This document shows positions 13,807 through 58,000 of a DNA stretch of 64,000 bases, in pieces. Positions within the stretch are counted from its first letter, which is position 1, and each line of letters opens with the position of its first letter. A program made the position numbers and the translations under genes. Source of the stretch: Urechis unicinctus (taxonomy: Eukaryota > Annelida > Polychaeta > Xenopneusta > Urechidae). The notes beneath the pieces were generated by a model. The model searched no databases. It was not told the origin of the DNA and saw only the letters and a list, made by a program, of their open reading frames with translations. The DNA lies in assembly GCA_034190875.2 (NCBI GenBank), contig CM067344.1, positions 14,712,149-14,776,148 of the forward strand. Direction: 5' to 3'.

Positions 13807-15281
13807 ATGGCGTCTGTGGAAGCGAGGGACTGGCGCGTAGGCCTCTCTCTCTGTCAACGCCTGCAGAACATGCTGGCTGGACAGTACGGAAGTGACGTCA
13901 TCTTCCAGGTGGGCGATGGGGACGCCAAGGAGACGATTCAGGCACACAGGTTCCCACTTATCGCTGGTTCAGCAGTGCTGGAAGCTGCGTTGACGAGATG
14001 GTCTTCGGGTGTACAGCAGCCTATACTTGTCACTGACGTGGAACCCACAGCTTTCAAAGCAATGCTGAGGTAGGGTGGTGGGGGTGGGGTGGCTTATTAA
14101 ACGCCAATTATTTCAAATGTTGGCAGATGTTTGTTGGTGGTCATTGCATAGTCCCGTGGAAGATTGATCTGAACGAACCATAATGTTTCAGGTTCCTTTA
14201 TTGTGAGGATCTGTCTCTTACAACTGAAAACGTGATGGCTCTGTTATACGTCGCCAAGAAATACCTGATCACCCATCTCTCTGAGAAGTGCGTTGAGTTT
14301 TTGGAGACACAGATCAAGGTTGACAACGTATCTACCATTCTGGATGGAGCCATGCGATACAACGAACCCGACCTGTCCAAGAAATGTCTCACCTTTATCA
14401 ACAAACACACGTCTGACGTCATCAAATCCGGCGACTTCGTTGACATATCAAACAAATCGTTGCTGGCGATCGTGAAGTCTGATGAGCTGTTGGTGGAGAG
14501 TGAGGTGGATGTGTTGACTGCTTGTATCAACTGGGCTGATGCTGAATGTGCGAGACAGGGCAAGGACTGTAGTGATCTCTGCCGGCGAAGCGCTCTCGGG
14601 GACGTGCTTATTCAGATCCGCTTCCCTACCATGACCAATGTGGAGTTCGCTAAAGCATCAAGAAAATCTGAGTTGTTGACGGCATTGGAGAAAAGTGGCG
14701 TTTACGAGCATATAGCTCTACAAGACACTGCATGTACAACATGCAGTTGTGATTCCAAGTTCATCAAGAAGCCAAGATCCTACCACCCGGCCTCAATCTC
14801 GCTCAGCAGGTATACAACTCAAGCGGCCGTCTGTCGATTTAGCTTGACTAATGTGAAGTATGGCTGGCCGGCGAGTGGCACCTCCAGCGCCGTGGATTTC
14901 GTATGCAGTAAGCCTGCTGCGATTGCCGGAGTGGGTATATATGGAAGCAACTCTGTTTGCAGTCATAACGTTACATTGACTCTTTTCAATCGGGATGGTC
15001 AGATATTAGCGAATGCTGACGGACTGTCCTTAATCTCCGACGGCAGTGACAAGCCAAAACGACTTGATTTCACTCAGCCTATTCACATCCTCGCTGGTTT
15101 CAGATACACTGTAACAGCGGCCCTTACCGATTCAGCGAGTACTTATTACGGCCAATTCGGTAGCGTGAATATTGTAACTGACTCTCTCTCGGTGGCTTTC
15201 CATGACTCGTCTCGGGGGACGACCACTGCGTATGGCCATGCCTCTCAGGGACAGATCCCTGAGATATATTTCAGAGTTTAA
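13807..15281 (+). CDS. BTB/POZ-BACK-PHR domain protein, BTBD6/BTBD3-like
   Basis: Two coding exons, 13807-14069 and 14192-15281, join in phase (AG|G) to give 450 codons plus TAA, the normal size for BTBD3/BTBD6/BTBD2 relatives. Exon 1 holds the start and most of the BTB domain (GSDVIFQVGDGD, HRFPLIAGSAVLEA). Exon 2 opens with FLYCEDLSLTTENVMALLYV, completing the BTB, then a BACK-type helical region (LAIVKSDELLVESEVDVLTA, CINWADAECARQ). A C-terminal PHR beta-sandwich follows (CSKPAAIAGVGIYGSNS, YTVTAALTD, GQIPEIYFRV). Family members act as substrate adaptors for CUL3 ubiquitin ligases; here that role is inferred from domain order only. The start ATG sits in a good context (GAGCCATGG). Which of the vertebrate paralogues it matches cannot be told by eye. 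Confidence 0.93.
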
Positions 15282-17515: not shown

Positions 17516-20500
17516 ATGGATTTCCTGTCTCTGGTTGCCATTTACCTACTGGTTTGGGTGATGGGTTTGTTGTGTTATACTTATTCCGACCACCCTCTGT
17601 TAACGAGTAGACCAGGCCGCCTCTTGAATAAATCTTTCTCCTGTGTAAGTATGAGTTTGATTTCCATGGCATCATGATTAGAAACATTTTCATACTAAAA
17701 CAACATGACCATAAATACTTTGTGGATTAATACTTGGTGCTTTAATATCCATGGCTTTTCACTGAAGCCAAATGCTGTGTTTTAATGAACACAAACAAAT
17801 ATTGCTCTTGGCAGTTCTTATCTGTGACTGAGAGTACTACATTTTCTTATGTTTCAGGTAATGCATTTTATTCTGAGAACTGTTCCATCTCCTTTGAAGT
17901 CCTCATGTATTGCTGCTTCTAACTACCTCTTCTGCCAAAGGTGAGGCTAGTATATGTATATCTGGGTCCTCATATTCTTATTTGATATTGTTCAATTTCC
18001 GAGTCTGCATTGTATGTGCAGCTATGTGCCATGAAATGATAGTAATGTGAGGGCAATCAACTGGGTGGCTATTGGAGTATGGGAAGGACACTCATTCAGA
18101 CAGATGCTACAAACATCTGTATTGTTGCCAATACAGTAACAGTTCATGAAAATTAATGCTGAATTTGTTTATTTAAGCTCTGCTCGTATACCTTTGCTCA
18201 AGTTTCTGTCCATCCTTATGTCCGATCATTAACTTCGGGTGGCATGCTTTCTTATCAACCAAGCTCCCACTCCCAAATTACACATGGATCTTGCATACCA
18301 TGAATCAGCCCCACATGACCTTTGAGTTATGAAATAAAAATTTGTCCCATGTGATGGCACATTTCCATGTAAAGCAAGCTAGCTGCACCAAATAACATTT
18401 GGACCCCTCTGATATTGATTTGTTCCTCACCATCTAAAAATTAGCACTTTATGACCATTGAGTTATGAGTTATTTGAGAAAAACTTAAGCTCCTTGCAAA
18501 CCAGAAATCAGCCTCAAATGACCTTTGATCCCTGAGTTATTAGAGAAAAACTTGTAAGAAAACCTTTTGTACAATGATAAGCCAATGGATAACAATTGTT
18601 AATGTCATATTTACTTATAAAGCAAGCTAGCTTTGTTCCTTACCTTGGACCCCTCTGATATCGATTTGTTCCTTACCTTGGACCCCTCTTATGTTGATGG
18701 CTCCTCGCTAACCAAAAAATCAGCCCCACAGGATCTCTGACCCCTGAGTTGTTTGAGAAAAACCTTGTTCTATGTAAATTTAATGCAGATTTCCACAAGT
18801 AGGTGTCCCAGATAACAAATGGACTAGTCTAAAGTTGATGTCTCTTTGCAAACTTTAATTCAGCCCTGCATGACTTTTAAAAAAAAACATCAAAAACTTT
18901 TGCACGAAGTAAACACTGTGCGGAATAATATGTTTCTCTGTTCAGCTGTTTCATCAGGCTTTTGTGCGTTTGTTAATTTTTATGGCGAGTTTTCCAATAA
19001 AGCCAACTAGCTACCCCAAATAAGAATTCTTATTATAATTAGTATTTGCATACTAAAAATCAGCTCTTCATGACCTCTGACGCTGAGTCATTATTGGAAA
19101 TCTCATGCACCATTTACATCAAAGACAGCATCATGATCTCATCCTGTTCTAACCAAAATCTTTAGTCATGTAACCCCTTGGTCAAAAGTGGGGGTGGTTC
19201 AAGGCATATTGTTTGTTGTGCCATGGATTTTTAATTGTGCATTGCTGTTTCTTTCTTACATTTACAAGAAATAGTTACTAAAACAAGTGCTTTTTAAATT
19301 GTGATAAGAAAAATTTGTTAAAACTAGTCTTGAGGATTGTTAAGTACTAGCATGAAAAATAAATCTCTTAACAAGGCTGATTTCATGTTTCTGGCTTAAA
19401 TCTTAGTAGGGGCTTAGGATTTTGATTATGATGAATGATTTTGCCTGCTATATTAAGCAAGTCAACTATGGTGAAGAGATAATTTCATTAATCATTTGTG
19501 TCATTGAAGACAATTGTGATTCATTTCATAGAAAAAGTATTCGGATGTCTATTGAAGCCATTTGAAACGGGTTATTTGTGTCAAGGTACTACAAACACTT
19601 TGACCCAGTTTGAGTGAATCATGCACAGAACAATTGCTTTTAGTTCATACGTCATAAAATCTAAATTTAGAATTAACATTTATAAAGCAACCCACATCCA
19701 TATAGCATAAGTACTCCTTTATAATGTTTTGCCTGCATAGCGTGTATTCTCTTTGTTATTTTATAAATAAGGTGTTATGAAATCTCGATATGTTATACGG
19801 CCCTTTTTACCTTGAGATTTGGTCCAAAACTTTTCGTAATGGAAAGTTACATTGAAGATGACCCTATCAGACTGCTTCTCCATAATTTATCCAGGTGTTG
19901 GTCACTTTCCAATCACACAAAAGGTATCCTAAAATTACAGACTTTTTGTCCTCCCAAAATGGCGAATTAGCCCCAGTGCAACAATTTGAAATGACCTTGA
20001 GAGAGGGGCCCAATATTACACAGTTGCATAGACCAGTCACACTTAGCGTTTTTATGCCTGTAGACAGTCTCAGGTTCTTCTTGTCAGTAGACAGTCTCAG
20101 GTTATTGCCTGTAGACTGTCTCAGGTTGTTCTTGTCTGTAGACAGTCTCAGGTTATTGCCTGTAGACTGTCTCAGGTTCTTCTTGTCTGTAGACAGTTTC
20201 AGGTTATTGTTTGTCGACTCTCTCAGGTTCTTCTTGTCTGTAGACAGTCTCAGGTTCTTCTTGGCTGGAGACAGTCTTAGGTTCTTCTCGTCTGTAGACA
20301 GTCTCAGGTTCTCATATGTAGACAGTTGTAGGTTATTCTTGGCTGAAGACAGTCTCAGGTTCTTCTTGACTGAAGACAGTCTCAGGTTCTTGTCTGTAGA
20401 CATTTTCAGGTTCTCATCTGGAGACAGTCTCAGGTTCTTGTCTGTTAACAGTCTCTGGTTCTCGTCTGTAGACAGTCTCAGGTTCTTGTCTGTTAACAGT

Positions 20501-23500
20501 CTCTGGTTCTCATCTGTAGACAGTCCCAGGTTCTTGTCTGTAGACAGTCTCGGGTTCTCATCTGTAGACAGTCTCAGCTTCTTGTCTGTAGACAGTCTCA
20601 GGTTCTCATCTGTAGACAGTCTCAGCTTCTTGTCTGTAGACAATCTCAGGTTCTCATCTGTAGACAGTCTCAGGTTCTTGTCTGTAGACAGTCTTAGGTT
20701 ATTCTTGGCTGAAGATGGTCTCATGTTATTCTTATCTGTAGACAACCTCAGGTTCTTGTCTGTAGACAGTCACAGGTCCTACCTGTCTGTAGACAGTCAC
20801 AAGTCGTACCTGTCTGTAGACAGTCACATGTCCTACCTGTCTATAGATAGTCACATGTCCTACCTGTCTGTAGACAGTCACATGTCCTACTTGTCTGTAG
20901 ACAGTCACATGTCCTACCTGTCTGTTGATAGTCACAGGTCCTACCTGTCTGAAGACAGTCTCAGGTGCCTCCTGGCTAATGACACCATCAGGTTCTTCCA
21001 GGCTGAACACCGTTTGAGGTCTCCTTATCCATGGACAGTCTTAGGTTCTTCTTGACTGGATTAAGTCTCAGATTCTTCCCTATATGTTGCCTGGTGTTCT
21101 TTTTGTCTAACTTGTCTAATGTTCTTCTGGTTTGTAGTTTGTGTCCCGTCCTTGATGTCTGTAGCTTGCTTGATTTTCTTTTTGTCATTGGATAATCCGA
21201 TGTTTTTCTTAACTGTATAATGGTTTGTTGACATATATAACTACAGTTTTACAGTAGATGTAATTACATATGAACCTTTTGTCACAGTTGTCTATGAATT
21301 ACGATGAGCTTATAACTGGGTGGTTTTATCTTATATATACAGTATATACATCAAGTTCTATTTCTGCTGTTTAATATACTACAGCACATCCATGAGGCTG
21401 CAGGAAAATGTATCACCCATGCTAGGGCAATATAGATAACTAATCAATGAGTTACTTGTGTTATGTCTTCAATAACAGTGATACATTAATATAGGCCAAC
21501 ATAAGAGACATTTGGAATTAGGTATCACATCTATTAAGCATATGGTAAATAAAATTAATGACAAATATACAGGCTTGGTGAAATAGTTGAATGCCTGTCT
21601 GAATAAGCTGGTAAAATAGTGACTTGTTCTCTGCAGTTATAGTTACCTGGCTGGCAATAATTACATATAAAATGAGGAAGTCTGTAAACTGCTTCTTGCC
21701 TCATACACCATCATACAAACCACACCCCTGTTTGTGACCATGCCCCCCTTGTTCCCTGGTGGTTGCTCCTCATTATGAGATCCACCCAGGGGTAATTTCC
21801 TTAATGGTCGCTAAAGCTTGTTCAGGCTAAGCCAGCTAAGTGTTGGTGATTGCTGCTGGTGCTTGGACCCTGGTGGCCTCTGGGGCAGCAGTGTCATAGC
21901 GTGTTAAGTAATCATTGGAACATAGTGCACTTAATGAATGGGGATGGAGTCAGGCTTGCGTGGGTTGTCTGCTCATATCTCCTACATACTGTCACTGAGA
22001 AGATAACTGCCAGATAAGTGTCATTCAGTGCATGGATATCTCTTACAAGTCATAGGTGTCTGGACAAACAAGGGTAACAAAAGTGCTTACTGTGTTACCA
22101 GGAGACAAAAGAAGGCAAACATTGATCACTGTGTTATCTGGTGGCCAATGAAAGCAAACATAGGTCACTGTGTTATCTGGAGGGAAGCAAAAATTGTTAC
22201 TGCATTATCTAGAGGCCAAAGAAAGCAAACATTGTTACTGCATTATCTGGAGGCCAAAGAAAGCAAACATTGTTACTGCATTATCTAGAGGCCAAAGAAA
22301 GCAAACATTGTTACTGCATTATCTAGAGGCCAAAGAAAGCAAACATTGTTACTGCATTATCTGGAGGCCAAAGAAAGCAAACATTGTTACTGCATTATCT
22401 GGAGGCCAAAGAAAGCAAACATTGTTACTGCATTATCTGGAGGCCAAAGAAAGCAAACTGTTACTGCATTTATCTGGAGGCCAAAAACAAACATTGTTAC
22501 TGCATTATCTGGAGGCCAAAGAAAGCAAACATTGTTACTGCATTATCTGGAGGCCAAAGAAATCAAACATTGTTACTGCATTATCTGGAGGCCAAAGAAA
22601 GCAAACATTGTTACTGTGTAATCTGATGGACAGAGAGAGCATATATTGGTCACTGCGTTATTTGGAGGCACAACATGCTGGAGCACATTTTATAATGGTG
22701 TGCAAAATCAGCTTGCAATGGTCGTTGTATTGATTTTACAGCACGTTTTGTTTTTTCTCTGCAGGAATCACGTGTTTCAAGTGATCTACTGCAGCCTGGT
22801 GCTAGCTGGCCATGTGATCATAGTGGTGGACGTTCTGCCTCTGCTGTATCACATGGACTCACACACCAATCACACATTCTGGTGTCTCACCCTGCTCATC
22901 ATCAATGCAGCCTGCTTCTCAGTGTGTTGTATCAGTGATCCAGGCTGCATTTCAGCTGCTACTCTCAAGCATTATCAGGAAATCTATAAAGCTGATGGCA
23001 TCCTCTATAAACCGTATAATAAATGCCTCACGTGTTCTTTCATCAAGCCACCCAGATCAAAACACTGTGGTAAGTACGGCACATGGTGTTTGGGATATGA
23101 GAGATGCAAGTTGTGTGGGATCTTTAGGAGGTGCATTGTATATTTTCTCAGTTGGATTTGAATTATGTGTCGACAGCTTTTACTGATTGGTGCGTTTTCA
23201 AGTTCGATCACTTCTGTGTTTGGACGAATAACACCGTGGGGGGGAAGAACCATCGGTATTTTGTGTGCTTTCTGGTGTCTGTTGTGATCATGTCACTGAA
23301 TGCTGCTCTCATGGCGCTTAAAGCATTAGTGAATATCACAGTGCTCTACCAGCTCTGGAATGTTCGTTATATTGATGGGACCGGGCGCTCACAGCCAATC
23401 ACATTCCCCATATTAGCTCAGGTAAGTTACTGCTTAAGTTGATCAAGCCCAAATACTGTGGTGAGCCATACAGGTGTACTTGATAAGAGATCCTCGGACT

Positions 23501-25873
23501 AAATCAGTTACAGCAGACAGTGAGATGGAGTTGGTGGAAATAGTTCCTCACTGAGGAAGATTACATTTGACCTAACCTTGTGAGTGTTGTGAGTCCAGTG
23601 GTCATTTGGTTTGCTGTGATGTGTTTTTATGGTGAGAATTTTATAAGCTTAAAGAAGTCCCTACATGTTGGCAGTCTTTCATGAAAATACAGTTATATTT
23701 TCATTTGGTCTCTTTTTGATGTTCCTTTATGAGCTTATTGAGTATGATATTGCTGTAAAATATCAGTTATTAATTACATCAATTAAGGTGATATGATTAG
23801 ATCATTAATCATTCAACTCTATGGCTGTTTGGGTTGGAACTGAGTGGAGTGATCGCAGTAGGTGGGCATGATATGTGCTGATTCAGATTGGCTGACCAGC
23901 ATTCCAGATGCATAAGATATATAATCCACTGGTGCACTTATCCAATTAACTATGGCTGAGGGATGCATTAAGGTAATGCTTGCTTGCAGACCGAATTAAA
24001 CTGGCAGGTGGTGGATCAGGGGGAGGCTATTGCTGTTGTGTGTGACAGGACTGGATGTGTTTAGGGGGAATTGTTGGGTCTGTGTTGCAGGTGAATGACT
24101 GTCCCATGTGGTAAGCAGTTATATATACTGTTTGTAACTATGGTGTTATGTAGCAAAGATAAGTGATCATTCACCTGCAACACAGTGATCATTAATTATG
24201 ATCACTTATCTATGATCATTATATCTGTCGCATATACACAGCTTCCTCCCAATTTGGTGTTATGCGTCTGTAGGACCTTACAGACCTTGTTAAATCCTTA
24301 AAATGTCTATGTGAAATGGATTTTTGAATTAATCAATTTTTATCTGGACCAGGTGTTATCTGTTTGTCTCAGGTGGTAGTTTTATGTCTGTGTCAGGTGA
24401 TTGTTGTCAGTTTGTGCCAGGTGGTAGTTCTATGTCTGTGCCAGGTGATTGTTGTCAGTTTGTGCCAGGTGATGGCTGTCTGTCCAATGGCAGGTAATTG
24501 TTTTCTGCCTGTGCCAGGTGGTGGCTTGTCTGGGCCAGGAAATTGTCAGTCTGTGCCAGGTGGTGGCTTGTCTGGGCCAGGTAATTGTCAGTCTGTGCCA
24601 GGTGGTGGCTTGTCTAGGCCAGATAATTGTCAGTCTGTGCCACAAGATTTGCGTCTGTGTGCAACGGTGGCCGTCTGGCGTGGCTGTCTGTCCATGTTGG
24701 TGGTGCCAGGTAATGTTTGCTGGCGGGCCATGTCTGGTGGAGGTGTCCATGTCTGGCTGGCCGTCTGTGGCATGTCTGGTGGTGGCCGGTGGCCGTCTGT
24801 TCATGCGGTGGTCTGTCTGTCGTCATCCATGTCTGGTGGTGGCTGTCTGTCCATGTCTGGCAATAGCCTTCTGTCCATGTCTGGCGGCTGTCTGTCTGTC
24901 TGTCTGTCCATGTCTGGTGGAGGTCTGTCTGTCCATGTCTGGTGGTGGCCGTCTGTCCATGTCTGGTGGTAGCCGTGTCTGTCCATGTCTGGTGGTGGTC
25001 GTCAGTCCATGTCTGGTGGAGGTTGTCTGTCCATGTCTGGTGGTGGCTGTCTAGTCCATGTCTGGCGGTGGCCGTCTGTCCATGTCTGGAGGTGGTCGTC
25101 TGTCTGAGCCAGGTGATAGCTGTCTCCGAGTGTCAGGTGATTGTTATTGGTCTGGGTCACATGGAGGGTGTTTCTGTTGAGGATGTTTGCCCATGGCTTG
25201 TGGTTGTTGACTTTGTGGTGGTTTGGGGTCATGTGGCTGTCTATTTCAAGTGGTGAATGTTTTTTCCTGTTTCAAGTGGTGATTGTCTGTCTATATTAAG
25301 TGGTGGCTGTCAGTATGTTTCAAGTGGTGGCTTTCTGTCAGTGTCAGATAGTGGTTAAGGGCCGCATGTTTGTCTTTTACTGCCTGGTTGTGGCTCTGTA
25401 TCTGGGGCGAGAGGTTTCGCCCAGTTATCTTATCCAACATGCATCACCAGATCATCCAAGCCCAAAGTGTTGGTACAACTGACTCAAGCAGTACTTTCCG
25501 ATGTTCCTGGCAGTACATTTATTATTTCCATGTTACAGACTTTGTTTATGCAGTTCCCCCGCCTGGTGTTACTGGCAGTACATTTATTATTTCCATGTTA
25601 CAGACTTTGTTTATGCAGTACCCCCGCCTGGTGTTCCTGACAGTTTCCCTCGCTGTAGTCACAGCCATCATGACTTGCTTCACTGGATACCATGTCTACC
25701 TCACCCTAACCAACCAGACCACCAATGAGCGATATAAAAGGTATTACTTGCACAAAGCTGGCCACAGACTCGCATGCAACCCCTATAATAAAGGTCTGCT
25801 CAAAAACATTATGGAAGATCTATTCCCCCTTTGTTGTACGAAGAGACCCTCACATCAAAATAAAGTAAAATAG
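17516..25873 (+). CDS. ZDHHC4: ZDHHC4-like palmitoyltransferase with degenerate zinc site
   Basis: Family members are multi-pass membrane S-acyltransferases. The exons are 17516-17644, 17858-17940, 22765-23069, 23177-23421 and 25604-25873. All phases agree, giving 343 residues plus TAG against 344 in human ZDHHC4. The N-terminus [19 protein letters not shown] is a membrane segment like the human start, and two more hydrophobic segments precede the cysteine-rich domain. That domain reads [15 protein letters not shown], then across the splice [14 protein letters not shown], then VWTNNTVG. The DHHC motif is DHFC: the catalytic Cys is kept, but His-3 is Phe and two further expected Cys are Thr. 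The C-terminal part is typical ([27 protein letters not shown]). Introns 2 and 4 hold large minisatellites. The exon 5 acceptor is tandemly duplicated. Confidence 0.9.
18200..19110. repeat. Degenerate ~130-170-bp tandem repeats in ZDHHC4 intron 2
   Basis: At least five diverged units share blocks such as AATCAGCCCCACA, GACCCCTGAGTTRTTNGAG and GGACCCCTCTGATATTGAT. The divergence suggests an old array. Confidence 0.6.
20045..21060. repeat. 24-27-bp minisatellite (TCTGTAGACAGTCTCAGGTT unit), ZDHHC4 intron 2
   Basis: About 1 kb of units close to GTAGACAGTCTCAGGTTCTT. In one frame it reads as an SVDSLRF-type repeat for 386 codons, and a long frame on the other strand is also open. Openness on both strands follows from a unit length divisible by three that lacks stops, so neither frame is called a gene. 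Confidence 0.9.
22170..22630. repeat. 38-bp minisatellite in ZDHHC4 intron 2
   Basis: About 11 near-identical units of ATTGTTACTGCATTATCTGG plus AGGCCAAAGAAAGCAAAC, ending about 135 bp before the exon 3 acceptor. Confidence 0.93.
24360..25115. repeat. GT-rich minisatellite (CCATGTCTGGTGGTGG unit), ZDHHC4 intron 4
   Basis: Two related sub-arrays: CAGGTGRTNGTTGTCAGTTTGTGC-like units first, then GTCTGTCCATGTCTGGTGGT-like units. Open frames on both strands are artefacts of the repeat. Confidence 0.9.
25503..25632 (+). repeat. 65-bp tandem duplication spanning the exon 5 splice acceptor of ZDHHC4
   Basis: Two copies (25503-25567 and 25568-25632) differ at only two bases. Each has the pyrimidine tract, the TTACAG acceptor and the first exon codons (ACTTTGTTTATGCAG). 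Because 65 is not a multiple of three, only the second acceptor (exon start 25604) keeps the frame. Confidence 0.9.
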
Positions 25874-26100: not shown

Positions 26101-29100
26101 TCATTTCTTTGTTTTTTTACCCTTCTTTTTCCCTGAATTAGACTGTTTCTTTTGTTGCTTCATTTGACCAATTTTCCCTTTCTTGGCAAATATCCTCTTC
26201 GGTCCTGCCTTTGTTTTCAGTTTCTTTAAAGGAGGTGATTTTGGTTGACTTGACTCGTCCTCTGATTGGTCAGATCCAGGTTCATCCTCCTCCGATTCAT
26301 CTGATTGGCTGACTGGTTTTGCAGGAGAAGAACGGCTTTTATCTCCCTGTTTGTCTTTACTCTCAGCTTTTGGTGAACTCTTTTTAGAAACAATTTTCTT
26401 GGCTGAAACATTAGGAACATTTTAAAATGCCACACTTCTGAGATGACAACGATCATATCTTACACATGAACTCACACAGGTCATATACATGTAAAGGTGG
26501 CAACCCCCTTTTTTTGGTCCAGAATTGTTGTAATTGAAAAATAACACTGAAGACAACTTATAGTCCCGGGAGCTTTGCAGTTTTTGTTGTGTGTCTAAGC
26601 TCGATTATAAGGCGTGGATTTGGTTGATAAAATGAGTAACCATGCTGAACACATTCAAGGTTGATAAGCCAATACCCAAAATGCAGGGGTAGACAGCATC
26701 AGCTTGTCCCGAATGACAACTGGAAACTACACAAATTTCTAAGACTACTATTTCACACAATCCATTTCTGATGTTGCAATAACCAACCTAGCGAAAAGCA
26801 GCAAGAAATTTGAGCTGCTGTGATTTGGGTTGTGTCAAGCAAAGGAATAAGTCCGAGTCTCTTCAATTAAAACTGTACATGTACTGGGTACATGCAGAAA
26901 TGTGATCTCAGCACGCCAAACTGGCATAAGAGTCATTCCAAGTCAAATCAACCAGAGCCTCCCGCGAAGGATTTTTGATTTTTTTCTAGCTTCTCACAGT
27001 GAAAGATCCATATATCTGACGGACTTTGGTCAAATAATTAAGCCCAAATATGATTACTTCTTCAGATTCAGCCTATTTTATGACAGGGGGGTCATTTTTT
27101 ATATTAAGGCCTTCATTTTGGAGCATGTTGAGGCCCCTGGAAAAGGCATTTTAAGAACAACCAGGCCCATAGCTTTCATTTTCCCTTCAGAAAAGTAAGA
27201 ATATATTTGTATTGTATCATTTTTCTCTCACCTTGGACCCTTGGTTATCCTCTCACAAGCTCCAGTAAATGCGAAATATCACCGTGACGCGAATTCGCGA
27301 GTGGTTTTTAGTGATGTTGATTTGTATTTTTCTCAAGGAATATTCATGATGGGACCTTCATCTTTGGTATGCAAACTCAGAATCAACTTTTCTAATAGTC
27401 TAAGCAAGCCAGAAGCTCTCAGTGATGAATATCAAGATTTATAGTGTTTCAAAGTTGGCTCCAGCCTGAAAAGTGCTATTTTTATCACTTTTCGGGGGTA
27501 CTTTTCTCAAAAGGGACACATGTTGTCCCTATAATTTTTTTTGTGGTGATAGATAGGTATCTTATCCAGAACATATAAAAAAATTGGAAAAGTAATATGT
27601 GTCCTTTTCATTTTACAGCATATTTCCTATAGTGATGTCGTGGAAGCATCTTAGCCATGATTATGAGTGTATTGGTTGCAAATTATGCTGTCTAATACTT
27701 TGAGATACTGGCAGATTAATTTTGCATTAATACCTGGACTAAACATGTGTATTTGCAAGATTTATATCATCATTTTCAGCGTTTTTTTTAACATTTCTGT
27801 GACATTCCTTTTCTAAAATATAAACAATCAGATTAACATCTACAATAAATTAGAAATGAAAACCTCTATATTCCCCTAAGCTCCATGAAGACAGAATACT
27901 TCATCCAATGTCTTGAGAAACCGGGAATTCTCCATATTGGGTTATGAGACTTCTAGGAATCCCACATTTGGTTTCAGTCTACAAAGTACACTCCCTATAT
28001 AAAGGTGGCTCCTCAGCAGAAATCAACAGGTTTTATTGCTCTCCTAAACTGTGTGCAAATATGGAGGGTTGCAGCATAGGGTTGCATCTTGGAAAAAAAG
28101 GCGACTAAACAACTTATTCCACTGCAGCTGGATTCAACAAGGTGTTTGATCTACAGTTAGAAGATCGTGAGCTTCTCCTTCGGAGAACTGAATTTTCAGA
28201 GCCCGATTCTTATACAACCGTGTGTTTTCATCATCAGAAAATCTGTTGTGATCCATATAGCCTACATAAAGAAATGAAATCTGAACAGTTCTCACATGGT
28301 TTGTCATGAGATCCTTGTTCAATAGCATCTGGAGGAACTCCTAAACAGGCTGCAACCTGATAGGATACAGCTTCCTAAGCTTCTAGGGCCTTTCTTTTGC
28401 CATACCTTACTCGGTCTCTTGAGCTGACTCTCTTAAACTTCAGGGAGAAAAGCCAGCTTCGGTGAGACTGGTATCCATTGTCTCCAGGTGATGTTCAGTC
28501 AAGCTCTCCTGTACTACCTGCGCTTCTCTGGATGCACTGGTCAACAAACCAGAGGGTCCAGCCTCAGGTTCTTCTTCTTCTGATGATGGAAATGCTGGGG
28601 GGCTGTAGGTTAGACATTGAGTACAGAGCTTTTGACCAGGATGCACTTTCTTTCCAGCTTGTACGCTTAAGGTGTCGGCAGTTTGAAGGTCTAGAGTACG
28701 GAGTGATTTGCGTCATGATGAATCTTTATGTAGGCTATATGGATCACAACAGTTCCTCTGCAGGAATGCATATTTGTCAATGTAGCTTTTCTGATGATGA
28801 AAACACACGGTTGTATAAGAATCGGGCTCTGAAAATTCAGTTCTCCGAAGGAGAAGCTCACGATCTTCTAATTGTAGCTCAAACACCTTGTTGAATCCAG
28901 CTGCAGTGGAATAAGTTGTTTTGTGACAGTCGCCTGTTTTACCAAGATGCAACCCTATGCTGCAACACTCCTTATTTGCAAACAGTTTAGGAGAGCAATA
29001 AAATCTGTTGATTTCTGCTGAGGAGCCACCTTTATATAGGGTGTGTACTTTGTAGACTGAAACCAAATGTGGGATTCCTAGAAATCTCATAACCCAATAT

Positions 29101-32100
29101 GGGGAATTCTCGGTTTCTCAAGACATTGGATGAAGTATTCTGTCTTCATGGAACTTAGGGGAATATAGAGGTTTTCATTTCTAATTTATTGTAGATGTTA
29201 ATCATGATTGCTTATATATAGATATACTAGTAGCCATTTTAGAAAAGGAATGTCACAGAAATGTTAAAAAAAACGCTGAAAATGATGATATAAATCTTGC
29301 AAATACACATGTTTAGTCCAGGTATTAATGCAAAATTAATCTGCCAGTATCTCAAAGTATTAGACAGCATAATTTGCAACCAATACACTCATAATCATGG
29401 CTAAGATGCTTCCACGACATCACTATAGGAAATATGCTGTAAAATGAAAAGGACACATATTACTTTTCCAATTTTTTTATATGTTCTGGATAAGATACCT
29501 ATCTATCACCACAAAAAAAAAATTATAGGGACAACATGTGTCCCTTTTGAGAAAAGTACCCCCGAAAAGTGATAAAAATAGCACTTTTCAGGCTGGAGCC
29601 AACTTTGAAACACTATAAATCTTGATATTCATCACTGAGAGCTTCTGGCTTGCTTAGACTATTAGAAAAGTTGATTCTGAGTTTGCATACCAAAGATGAA
29701 GGTCCCATCATGAATATTCCTTGAGAAAAATACAAATCAACATCACTAAAAACCACTCGCGAATTCGCGTCACGGTGATATTTCGCATTTACTGGAGCTT
29801 GTGAGAGGATAACCAAGGGTCCAAGGTGAGAAAAAATGATACAATACAAATATATTCTTACTTTTCTGAAGGGAAAATGAAAGCTATGGGCCTGGTTGTT
29901 CTTAAAATGCCTTTTCCAGGGGCCTCAACATGCTCCAAAATGAAGGCCTTTATATAAAAAATGACCCCCCTGTCATAAAATAGGCTGAATCTGAAGAAGT
30001 AATCATATTTGGGCTTAATTATTTGACCAAAGTCCGTCAGATATATGGAACTTTCACTGTGAGAAGCTAGAAAAAAATCAAAAATCCTTCGCGGGGAATT
30101 TTCCAAATTTTGGTTCATTTGAAATGGAATGACTCATAAGCATCAGTGCCGTACAATTACTGGTTATTCAGTCGGATGCACTTTGCTGAGCTCTGAAAAA
30201 CGCTATAATTTTAGGGCGAGAGGTATAAATGTTTGCTGTAGATAAGAATTGCAAACAGGGAAGTTATTAACTTGTCAAGTCAGCAGTAAACGGGGCCAGC
30301 TAACTGATCCACTATTTACAGATATGCAGAGAGCCAGTTTAGTATAGCACCACAAAATGGATCTGATATCAATTGTTGCTCATGGTAAGAGCCATATTCT
30401 TGCGCCCGATCAATCCTTTCTAGACCAATTAAATATACAAGAGTTAAAAGACTGTAATAGCCATAAGAAATTAAGCCCCACATCTTTTGTGGATCTATTC
30501 TACCTTGCTGCAGAGGTTGGTCTCCAGGTGTTGTCAAAGACAATGACTCTGTTGTCTCCTCCTCATCTTCCGACACCTCAGCAGATTTGGCAGTCTTTGA
30601 TCTCCCTGGTTAATTAACATATGACATGAAGTCCATACACAAATAGAAGTAAAACCAATCTCACAAGGACCAAACTTACAGTCCACTTATACATAACTCA
30701 CCATACAAGATCAATGCAATACACAGTTAATTATTTGAAACGTTAACTTTTCTTGGGAAGCAAGCCCAGTTTATTTAATCACTGGTCAATAAATTGTAAG
30801 CTCAATCAAGTGATGTCAGACTCTAAGATGAACAGAAGATGGCCCATCACATGTGGCCATTACCAACTCAAAAGCACAGCTGAACCTTCTCACATGATGT
30901 ACAACATTAACCATTATGAGATGGTTATTGAGATGATGGAAACAAATGAGGTTTGATGAAATGTTGTACCCCATATGACCCCATTCATATACAGCCTAGC
31001 CATGCTGCTGTTCAGAAGACAATAATGCAACAGCAACGCCAACCAGGAATATAGTCACTCATATTTACTTCTATCAAAATCATATTGGCTTCAACATAGG
31101 TCTGATTTTGTAATTACCAAACTGTCATTATGAAAAGGACACACACAAGAGCAAGACACTTGGACGCAGTCAACACTAGATACATACCTGGAATTATGTT
31201 GGAGAATTTCTTGAGTTTGGCCACAAAGAAGCCATCGAGATTGTGAACATGAGGATAGAATCGTCTGGTGTGCTTGAGACTGGGATGGAAACGATGCTCT
31301 CTGAAGCTGGAATCACAGGAGTCGTGTTTATCAGCAACAGTGAAAAAGCTCATGCAGCTGGCTGATGGCCTTCATCGGGGTGTGGCTGGGGGGTGGGGGG
31401 GAGGGGTGGTTGTAATGTTACATTATATGCTAGATCACTTACTTAACGAAGCCTTCAACTCCAAAGTCAAGGCCTGTAGGAACAAGCTTGACATTGCGTT
31501 TCTTGAGAGCGTACTCAACGACACGCTCATTCTCCTCCACCTGTACCACACAATCCCGCACCCTCATAAAACACTCCCTCCACAAACCAGCACGTGGTCA
31601 ATTGAGAAATGACATCATATTCAACGTCGAGTCCGAGAGATGAGGAACAACGGCCAACATTAATCAGCCATTGTTAGTTATTAGAAGTTCAGCCCCACAT
31701 ACGCACCATGATGGAACAGGTGGAGTACACAATGTAACCTCCTGTCTTGGACTTAGCATGGCAGCTGTCAATCGCAGCCAGAAGAAGTTCTCTCTGGAGG
31801 TGGGAACATCGCAATATGTCCTTCTCATCCTGTTACAGGGAAATACCAACAGAGAGAGGTCAATACAGAGAGAAGGGCTTACATAGGTATAGAGAAGGGG
31901 TAAGAGAAGGTGTAACACTGGCAGAGAAAAGGGGGTATTTAGGCAGATGGAAGGGGTAATATAGGTATAGAGAAGGTGTAACACAGGCAAAGAGAAGGTA
32001 ACACAGGCACAGAGAGGGGTTACACTAGCACACAGCTCACAGTCAAACAATGAAGCACAACAGGAGAAAGTTCCTGAAAGTGGTAACTTGTGACCGAGGT

Positions 32101-55052: not shown

Positions 55053-58000
55053 AGTAAAGAAAATAGCGGTTCTGACGTATCTTACTTAATTCAATAATTC
55101 AGTATAGAAAATAGCGGTTCGGGCGCACCTTACTTAATTCAATAATTCAGTATAGAAAATAGCGGTTCTGTCCTAACTTAATTGAACCAACGGTGGCCAG
55201 TTCCGCTCATACAAGGTTTTCAATTTTTGCTCCCTGTCAAGTTAAGGTGACCCCCAACAGGGCTACGTGGCTGAAAGGTAGGTCCGGTCCAATCCCCAAC
55301 AGGCCAGACTCCGAGCTGGTAAATTAACATGAAGTAACGCTAAGGTGTCTACGCCTGCATCTCACCACTGACAAGCTCCCCAAAGTGTTTCACTCGTTGC
55401 ACAAGGTCATCAAAATTCCTGACATCATCTCTCAGCTCGATCTCCAAATCTATTTTCTCTTCTCTCAGATAATTTACTTCTTCCTGCAACTCTTTTGCAC
55501 AACCTTCAAGCTCAGCAATACGCCCTACGGTGTTCATTTCTATACATAAACCCTCGTTTATTTAACAGACCAGGTATATTCAACGCATAAAAGTCCATGC
55601 AATGAAATCACTGTATTGAGGTGGGTCGATATCACTCACAATCCCCTGGTCGGTGTAGAAGCAGATGCACCCAATTTTTCTCCGAAGTCTTCTAATGCTT
55701 CGTCTTTTCCACGTTGTATAAGTGCGGTTTTTTTCATTGATTGAAACAGTCTAGTATGCTTTGAAAGATCTAGCCTTAATTTCCCCCTTCATTTGGGTAT
55801 ATTTTGTTACCTCAGCTAAGACGAGTTTAAAATCATGATTGAGATATTGCCATCTTCAAGTGCTGTTGATACAATGTCAGCGAAGGTATTCAATTTGCTC
55901 TGTGCAAGAATGCAGATCTGATTATGTTATTTTACCTTGATGGTCAGTCGCCGACTGATAAATTTTCCAGCGATTCCATGTAGCCCACAAGCGGCCCCAG
56001 TAGCACCTAACACTGTGGCAATAAGTATGACAACTATAGTAGACATTATACCTACACCACTTGCGCCAAGACACATATCAGCAGTAACTAAAGCAGTGTC
56101 TACTGCATCCAATGAGTTACATGCACGGATATAGTACATAGTACAATCTCTTTCTCGAGGTATTGCTTCTTGAGGCTGATCTCATTCAACTGATAGCAGT
56201 TCAGGATATAGAGGTGCCGTCGGAACGGTTGGTTGTTGTTTCATAAGTCTACGCTGCAGTTGTTCTAAAGATATTTCAACAGCCCGCTGGTCAACAAGCT
56301 TACTTATCCCTTTGGCTTGGTTTGTTCCATTTATAATTGGGACCTAGTATCAGTATCAGCGCCCACACAAGAATACCGCCCCATACGAATGACCTTACCA
56401 CTTGATAACATGATATATCCACAGCTTGTGTCTCATGAGGTTTGACCCATGGCTCCATCACCAAATCACCACTCATATCCTCTGCACAGGGCCCCACTTG
56501 CTTCTGCCCAAATAGTAATCAAGGGCTTCTTCCGTAATTCTATATATTCTCTCATGTCCCTGTGCTGCTCTCTATTTCTGCCATCAACATACTTTTTTAT
56601 TAGCAGCACCCTTTAGTGATATTTGGTCTCCCAACCGAAGGATTTGATTATCTCGCATTTCGAGGTCTCCAGTCACCGTTATCCATTTTTTGTGAGTCAC
56701 CAATAGATACATAGGTCTTTGTTGCATACTCAGAGAAGTCGGATTGAGTACTCGTTTTTATTGACATCTTGTGAATTCAAGAACAACGCTAACAGGTAAG
56801 TCGTGGTTATCCAATAGCCTTCCTTTGTTATCGTGTAACTGAACCTTCAACTTATGCACAGTTCTGCTAGTAACACTCTTAGAGACAGGATTAGTGATGT
56901 TCACCAAAAGAGCCACCATCTTAGCCCACAACTTCAAGAAGAACAGTAGGCGCACCATCTAGTAAGTTGTGCGTGGTATTGACTTGATCGAGTTGGACAT
57001 AAAGTGTGTTGAAGATGCTAAAGTTGATGGCCGAGTAATCACCTGAATGAATCCAACGCCTACCGTCATCAAGACAAAGAGAAGTTTGTGATCCACTACA
57101 GGAACCTTAAGCTCTACCTATCGCTAGAAATGAAACTGACTAAGATACACTGCGCACTCTCATTCGACCAAAGCCCATGGATGGAGCCCTAGTTTAGGAT
57201 GACCACCAACCTACGTTAGGTTGCCAGCCAGCGACTTTGAGAAGGACCTGTACAAGCTGATGAACAACTCCTTGTTCGGTAAGACAATGGAGAATTTCCG
57301 AATGCGAGTCAATGTTAAGATTGTGCACTCGGCAGAAGAGGAAAAATAAGCGGGCTTGTGGCCAGTCCCGCCTATACCCTGCAAACCGCCCGGTGTATGT
57401 AGGCATACTCAACCTCTCCAAGCACCTGATGTACGACTTCTAATACAACAAAATGAAGTCCAGTAGCGACCTGCGCCTGCTATACACAGACACAGACTCG
57501 CTGCTTAAGGAGATCTGCACAGCTGACGTGTACGCAGCCATGCAGGCGGACTTCACCCACTTTGACACCAGCAACTACTCACCTGATCACACACTCAAGA
57601 CCATCACCAATTAGAAGGTCTTGGGAAAAATGAAGGATGAGTGTGCCGGTGTGCCTATCAAGGATCAAGGAGTATATGGGTCTGCGCCAAAAGATGTACT
57701 CAATCCTGATGTCTGACGCAGGTGAGATTAAAAAGGCTAAGGGAGTGGAGAAGGTTGTAGTGAAGAAGCACCTACAGCACGCGCAATACATGGAGACTCT
57801 GTTCACATAGAAGCAGTTCCGCCATGGGATGAACATACTACGCAGTGATGGTCACAAGATATATGGGCTACATGTCAAAAAGGTGTCACTCTCCCCATTT
57901 GATACATAGCTGTGGACAGTCACGAACGGCGTAGACACATTAGCCCCTGGTCACGTTAATTTACCAGCGTGGAGTCGGGCCCGTTGGGGGTCGGATCGGA

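Follow-up and report, generated by a model that had tools for sequence, protein, structure and literature searches.

The window analysed here, a stretch of 64,000 nucleotides (C3:14712149-14776148) from a 1.19 Gb genome made up of 926 contigs, carries a ZDHHC4-like gene in which most ligands of the second zinc finger have been replaced. The observation of the lost finger-2 ligands is real, and the gene is a true, unusual variant of a known enzyme, for which an active enzyme and a pseudoenzyme are both in play. Among four readings, whose probabilities are our own judgement and were not calculated, we lean slightly towards a ZDHHC4-type membrane palmitoyltransferase that has had its second CCHC finger dismantled and would still be active with one zinc.

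The gene lies at window positions 17516-25873 on the plus strand and consists of five exons with 343 codons and a stop codon. The protein had been described from the sequence alone as full length and in frame, and this was borne out when the exons were joined: the frame runs without stop or frameshift, and all four introns start with GT and end with AG. The exons are as follows.

17516-17644, plus strand: exon 1, with the ATG and the first predicted membrane helix (hydropathy peak at residues 3-21), an open frame up to the gtaagtat donor.
17858-17940, plus strand: exon 2 (inferred), 27 codons and two bases, in a phase that fits exons 1 and 3.
22765-23069, plus strand: exon 3, with predicted membrane helices 2 and 3 and the CxxC and KHC of the cysteine-rich domain, from translation and splice sites.
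23177-23421, plus strand: exon 4, with AFTDWC, DHFC, NNTVG and predicted membrane helix 4, from the Pfam match and splice sites.
25604-25873, plus strand: exon 5, with predicted membrane helix 5, TTNE (the TTxE motif), NPYNKG, a C-terminal KVK (KXX) and the stop codon.

Exon 2 has the weakest footing and is the least certain of these: it was the sole candidate from a scan of 17651-22763 for splice sites, phase and open frame under the thresholds of that scan, and its probable position is set by splice sites and phase rather than by homology of its own. The cysteine-rich domain spans the junction of exons 3 and 4, where exon 3 ends at 23069 (TGTG/gtaagtacg) and exon 4 starts at 23177 (tgtgtcgacag/CTTT), with the codon G/CT across the junction giving Ala173.

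Membership in the DHHC family was significant, as translated exons 3-5 matched the Pfam DHHC family (PF01529) with 106.4 bits against a cut-off of 28.7. Taken singly, exon 4 gave 60.7 bits and exon 5 gave 19.3 bits, under the curated cut-off, while exon 3 by itself gave no PF01529 match. The catalytic Asp-His-x-Cys (DHFC at 23206) and the TTxE motif (TTNE at 25718) are both present. Eight matches to solved structures were obtained, led by ZDHHC9 (E 2.8e-18) and followed by ZDHHC5, Erf2 and DHHC20; ZDHHC4 is not among the eight. Overall the protein probably resembles ZDHHC4. Hydropathy peaks at residues 3-21, 77-95, 109-127 (overlapping 115-133), 202-220 and 263-281 point to five membrane segments, three of them before the cysteine-rich domain, and the C-terminus reads NKVK, that is KXX. 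A review gives zDHHC4, a vertebrate ER palmitoyltransferase, five predicted helices, three of them ahead of the domain, as well as an ER signal of the KXX type at the C-terminus (PMC8059564). The predicted topology and C-terminal signal of the window protein fit ZDHHC4, and both proteins have a DHHC domain with TTxE; the window protein differs in reading DHFC instead of DHHC and in carrying Thr, Phe and Thr at three of the four zinc ligands of finger 2.

To place the ligands we used zDHHC5, in which finger 2 is made up of C120-C123-H133-C140 (PMC11870023), and counted along its chain in the structure alignment. These numbers fall on the HC cysteine, the cysteine two positions further along, the second His of DHHC and the NNC cysteine, the same set that the sequence-only reading had claimed for the second zinc. 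At these positions the window protein has Cys172, which is kept, followed by Thr175, Phe185 and Thr192. Finger 1 is complete with Cys158, Cys161, His171 and Cys178, the domain beginning at residue 158, and the catalytic Asp183, His184 and Cys186 are retained. Two complete CCHC zinc fingers are used as a family criterion, and here finger 1 has four of four ligands and finger 2 has one of four, in agreement with the earlier claim that three ligands of one site were lost together while the other site and the catalytic Cys were kept. This criterion is not absolute, as yeast Akr1 counts as a family member although it lacks them (PMC8227752). The spacing of the domain is canonical, since five alignments (ZDHHC9, ZDHHC5, Erf2 and two DHHC20 chains) run through it without a gap; the joined exons confirmed the domain sequence and the Thr, Phe and Thr substitutions as first described. 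The positions concerned are listed below.

23024-23068, plus strand: three of the four finger-1 ligands (both Cys of CxxC and the His of KHC) and Cys172 of finger 2, from the sequence, zDHHC5 numbering and alignment.
23182-23184, plus strand: ACT, Thr175 replacing the second finger-2 Cys; all 20 non-redundant DHHC domains found elsewhere in the genome have Cys here.
23206-23217, plus strand: DHFC, with Asp183, His184 and Cys186 kept and Phe185 replacing the finger-2 His, a His in 20 of 20 others.
23233-23235, plus strand: ACC, Thr192 replacing the fourth finger-2 ligand (the Cys of NNC), a Cys in 20 of 20 others.

The comparison with other DHHC domains of the genome was based on a family search that gave 24 matches: the window gene, 22 other loci (L001-L022) and a second piece of one locus. 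As this search scores the best candidates only, the count is a lower bound (at least 22 other loci). L002 and L018 were left out as repeats of L001 and L017, leaving 20 domains, and where a domain was split between exons the pieces were joined by eye at a splice point that is approximate. Each finger-2 ligand is present in all 20. For the first two Cys of finger 1, 17 and 18 of these domains were readable, none of them lacking the residue; the remaining two finger-1 ligands occur in every one of the 20. Fifteen columns are conserved at 90% or more, of which the window gene keeps 12, including the catalytic D, H and C and the complete set of finger-1 ligands, and departs at three, all of them finger-2 ligands (hypergeometric P 0.009, with columns treated as independent and computed post hoc, when the pattern was already known). 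Because the other domains all keep each residue, and because the codons ACT, TTC and ACC are each at least two base changes away from any Cys or His codon, we regard the loss as going beyond chance. Sequencing or assembly error was rejected, given these distances and a frame that is otherwise open.

In the reading we prefer, the starting point is that Cys, His and Cys of finger 2 have given way to Thr, Phe and Thr while finger 1, Asp-His-x-Cys, TTxE and the frame are intact. The hairpin formerly pinned by the second zinc might then be held by packing of Phe174, Phe180 and Phe185 and by the Thr side chains, which is a guess from composition. Cys186 would still be placed at the membrane, where it could be acylated by acyl-CoA and hand the fatty acid on to ER substrates, by analogy with Akr1 working without the normal zinc set. 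Akr1 is a palmitoyltransferase although five Cys and one His are missing from its two fingers (PMC8227752). It differs from the window protein in being an ankyrin-repeat protein and in that six lost ligands must hit both fingers, whereas finger 1 is complete here. Akr1, Akr2 and Pfa5 read DHYC (PMC8107437) and so, like the window protein, have an aromatic side chain where DHHC has its second His; the Phe at this finger-2 position therefore has an active parallel. There is also an animal precedent for missing ligands. In a camel DHHC8 record -PLQR replaces SHCSV and ligands are lost in both fingers, with zinc binding and activity called unclear there (PMC8227752); like the window gene it is an animal sequence without some zinc ligands, but there one ligand is lost from each finger, with a deletion, whereas the window gene loses finger-2 ligands only. 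The case is thus less singular than the sequence-only reading implied, given Akr1 and the DHYC enzymes, although the variant itself is real and unusual. Our search of open-licence papers found none naming DHFC together with DHHC, and with a mollusc term none on finger-2 ligand loss, as judged by title and start of abstract; a C. elegans survey (PMC4192757) yielded no passage on zinc-ligand variants.

The main argument against activity comes from mutants of canonical enzymes. Autoacylation is eliminated in zDHHC5 C123S and zDHHC14 C181Y, and loss of function upon zinc finger disruption is called well established in the same paper (PMC11870023). In these mutants, as in the window gene, a finger-2 Cys is lost, and C123 corresponds to the position of Thr175. 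It is possible that the window gene encodes a pseudoenzyme, a protein that is made and conserved and acts as partner or decoy at the ER, with autoacylation abolished by the loss of the second site; we consider this unlikely, without being far-fetched. The mutants, of laboratory or tumour-related origin, differ from the window gene in that they carry a single change in an otherwise canonical domain, as compared to three replacements in a natural gene. A further point for a pseudoenzyme comes from one review, in which the second His of DHHC is assigned the deprotonation of the catalytic Cys (PMC7586229), so that Phe185 would equal the loss of a catalytic residue. This role is at odds with H133 of zDHHC5 as a zinc ligand and with the active DHYC enzymes. 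In a pseudoenzyme the loss of some of Asp183, His184, Cys186 and TTxE would be expected, and since all of them are retained we favour the active enzyme.

Another possibility, which we hold to be improbable, is an early pseudogene or a recently relaxed gene, where the substitutions are lesions and decay has yet to reach the reading frame. A feature that could be another early lesion is found at the start of exon 5.

25502-25644, plus strand: 65-base tandem duplication (94% match) that spans the exon-5 acceptor and the start of the exon, giving two acceptors that end at 25538 and 25603.

Splicing to the upstream acceptor (25538) would shift the frame and lead to a stop after residue 287, and the duplication might give rise to non-productive transcripts. 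With the downstream acceptor the frame is preserved, a point against early decay. Likewise, damage would have to account for three codons with two base changes each, all in one metal site, in a gene whose 343 codons are open and whose splice sites are intact. We simulated neutral substitution on the frame of the gene, and copies free of stops made up 15% at 5% divergence, 2.5% at 10% and 0.13% at 20%. When indels were added at an assumed rate of 0.1 per substitution, the probability of an intact frame at 10% divergence fell to ~1e-6. Long neutral decay is therefore a poor fit to the gene and unlikely. At 0.5-1% divergence, with indels, an intact frame had a probability of 0.49 and 0.24, but six changes at six named sites would then be a remarkable chance. 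Relaxed constraint on the finger-2 site alone, or a recent burst of change, is possible. The joint loss at one site, with the other site and the catalytic residues kept, and the poor fit of long decay uphold one part of the earlier proposal, that random decay is unlikely; adaptation to a fold without the second zinc, and an active enzyme, would go beyond this. Least probable of the four is that the wrong exon or a secondary copy was read, with the transcript using a canonical exon 4 from elsewhere or a normal ZDHHC4 alongside in the genome. The family search leaves some room for this, as its counts are lower bounds from the best candidates only. A motif scan of both strands of the window, of a kind that would miss exons with fewer than five of eight scored motif residues, turned up no further canonical DHHC exon with an open frame; splicing to a canonical exon 4 was one of the two outcomes that the sequence-only reading had named as refuting it. 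A DHHC on the minus strand near 57853 was rejected as an alternative exon, having stops around it. None of the 22 other loci found resembles a second ZDHHC4, as compared by eye on the cysteine-rich domain and not by a tree, and a canonical ZDHHC4 exon 4 would be expected to outscore the 58.5 bits of this exon in the family search.

An animal ZDHHC4 lineage may have evolved an active palmitoyltransferase that needs just one zinc ion, a hydrophobic core having taken the place of finger 2, a proposal that we would put just short of an even chance. The gene would then offer naturally evolved changes that compensate at a site where one mutation is enough to inactivate canonical enzymes. DHHC enzymes are usually taken to need their zinc ions for folding and activity, Akr1 being the odd exception, and an enzyme with one site cleanly lost and the other kept would make it possible to tell apart what each zinc does. 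Such an enzyme could reveal which replacements allow the active site to dispense with zinc, and what finger 2 contributes, be it to catalysis, to stability or to the recognition of substrates.

Searches beyond the genome gave no relatives: exon 4 had no match among plasmids and 16 pattern matches among viral contigs, none of them a relative, and the whole protein had 17 pattern matches among prokaryote genomes, again with no relative. Within the genome, nine loci (L001-L008 and L021) have their Pfam match inside one open frame of 288-401 amino acids; the residue after DHHC is Y, F, A or W, and seven of the nine have TGxC instead of NNC. As judged by eye they may form an expanded, intron-poor DHHC group, and L001 and L002, about 55 kb apart, have an identical domain sequence.

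Introns 2 and 4 of the ZDHHC4-like gene hold minisatellite arrays at 20058-21078, 22087-22669 and 24354-25104, with units of 21-49 bases and one row of 180, and some of these arrays are open over long stretches in several frames. Upstream, at 13807-15281 on the plus strand, lies a two-piece open gene for what looks by eye like a BTB-domain protein. Downstream of the gene, near-identical peptides are encoded on opposite strands at 27199-27444 (plus) and 29613-29924 (minus), forming an inverted repeat that is perhaps a mobile element.
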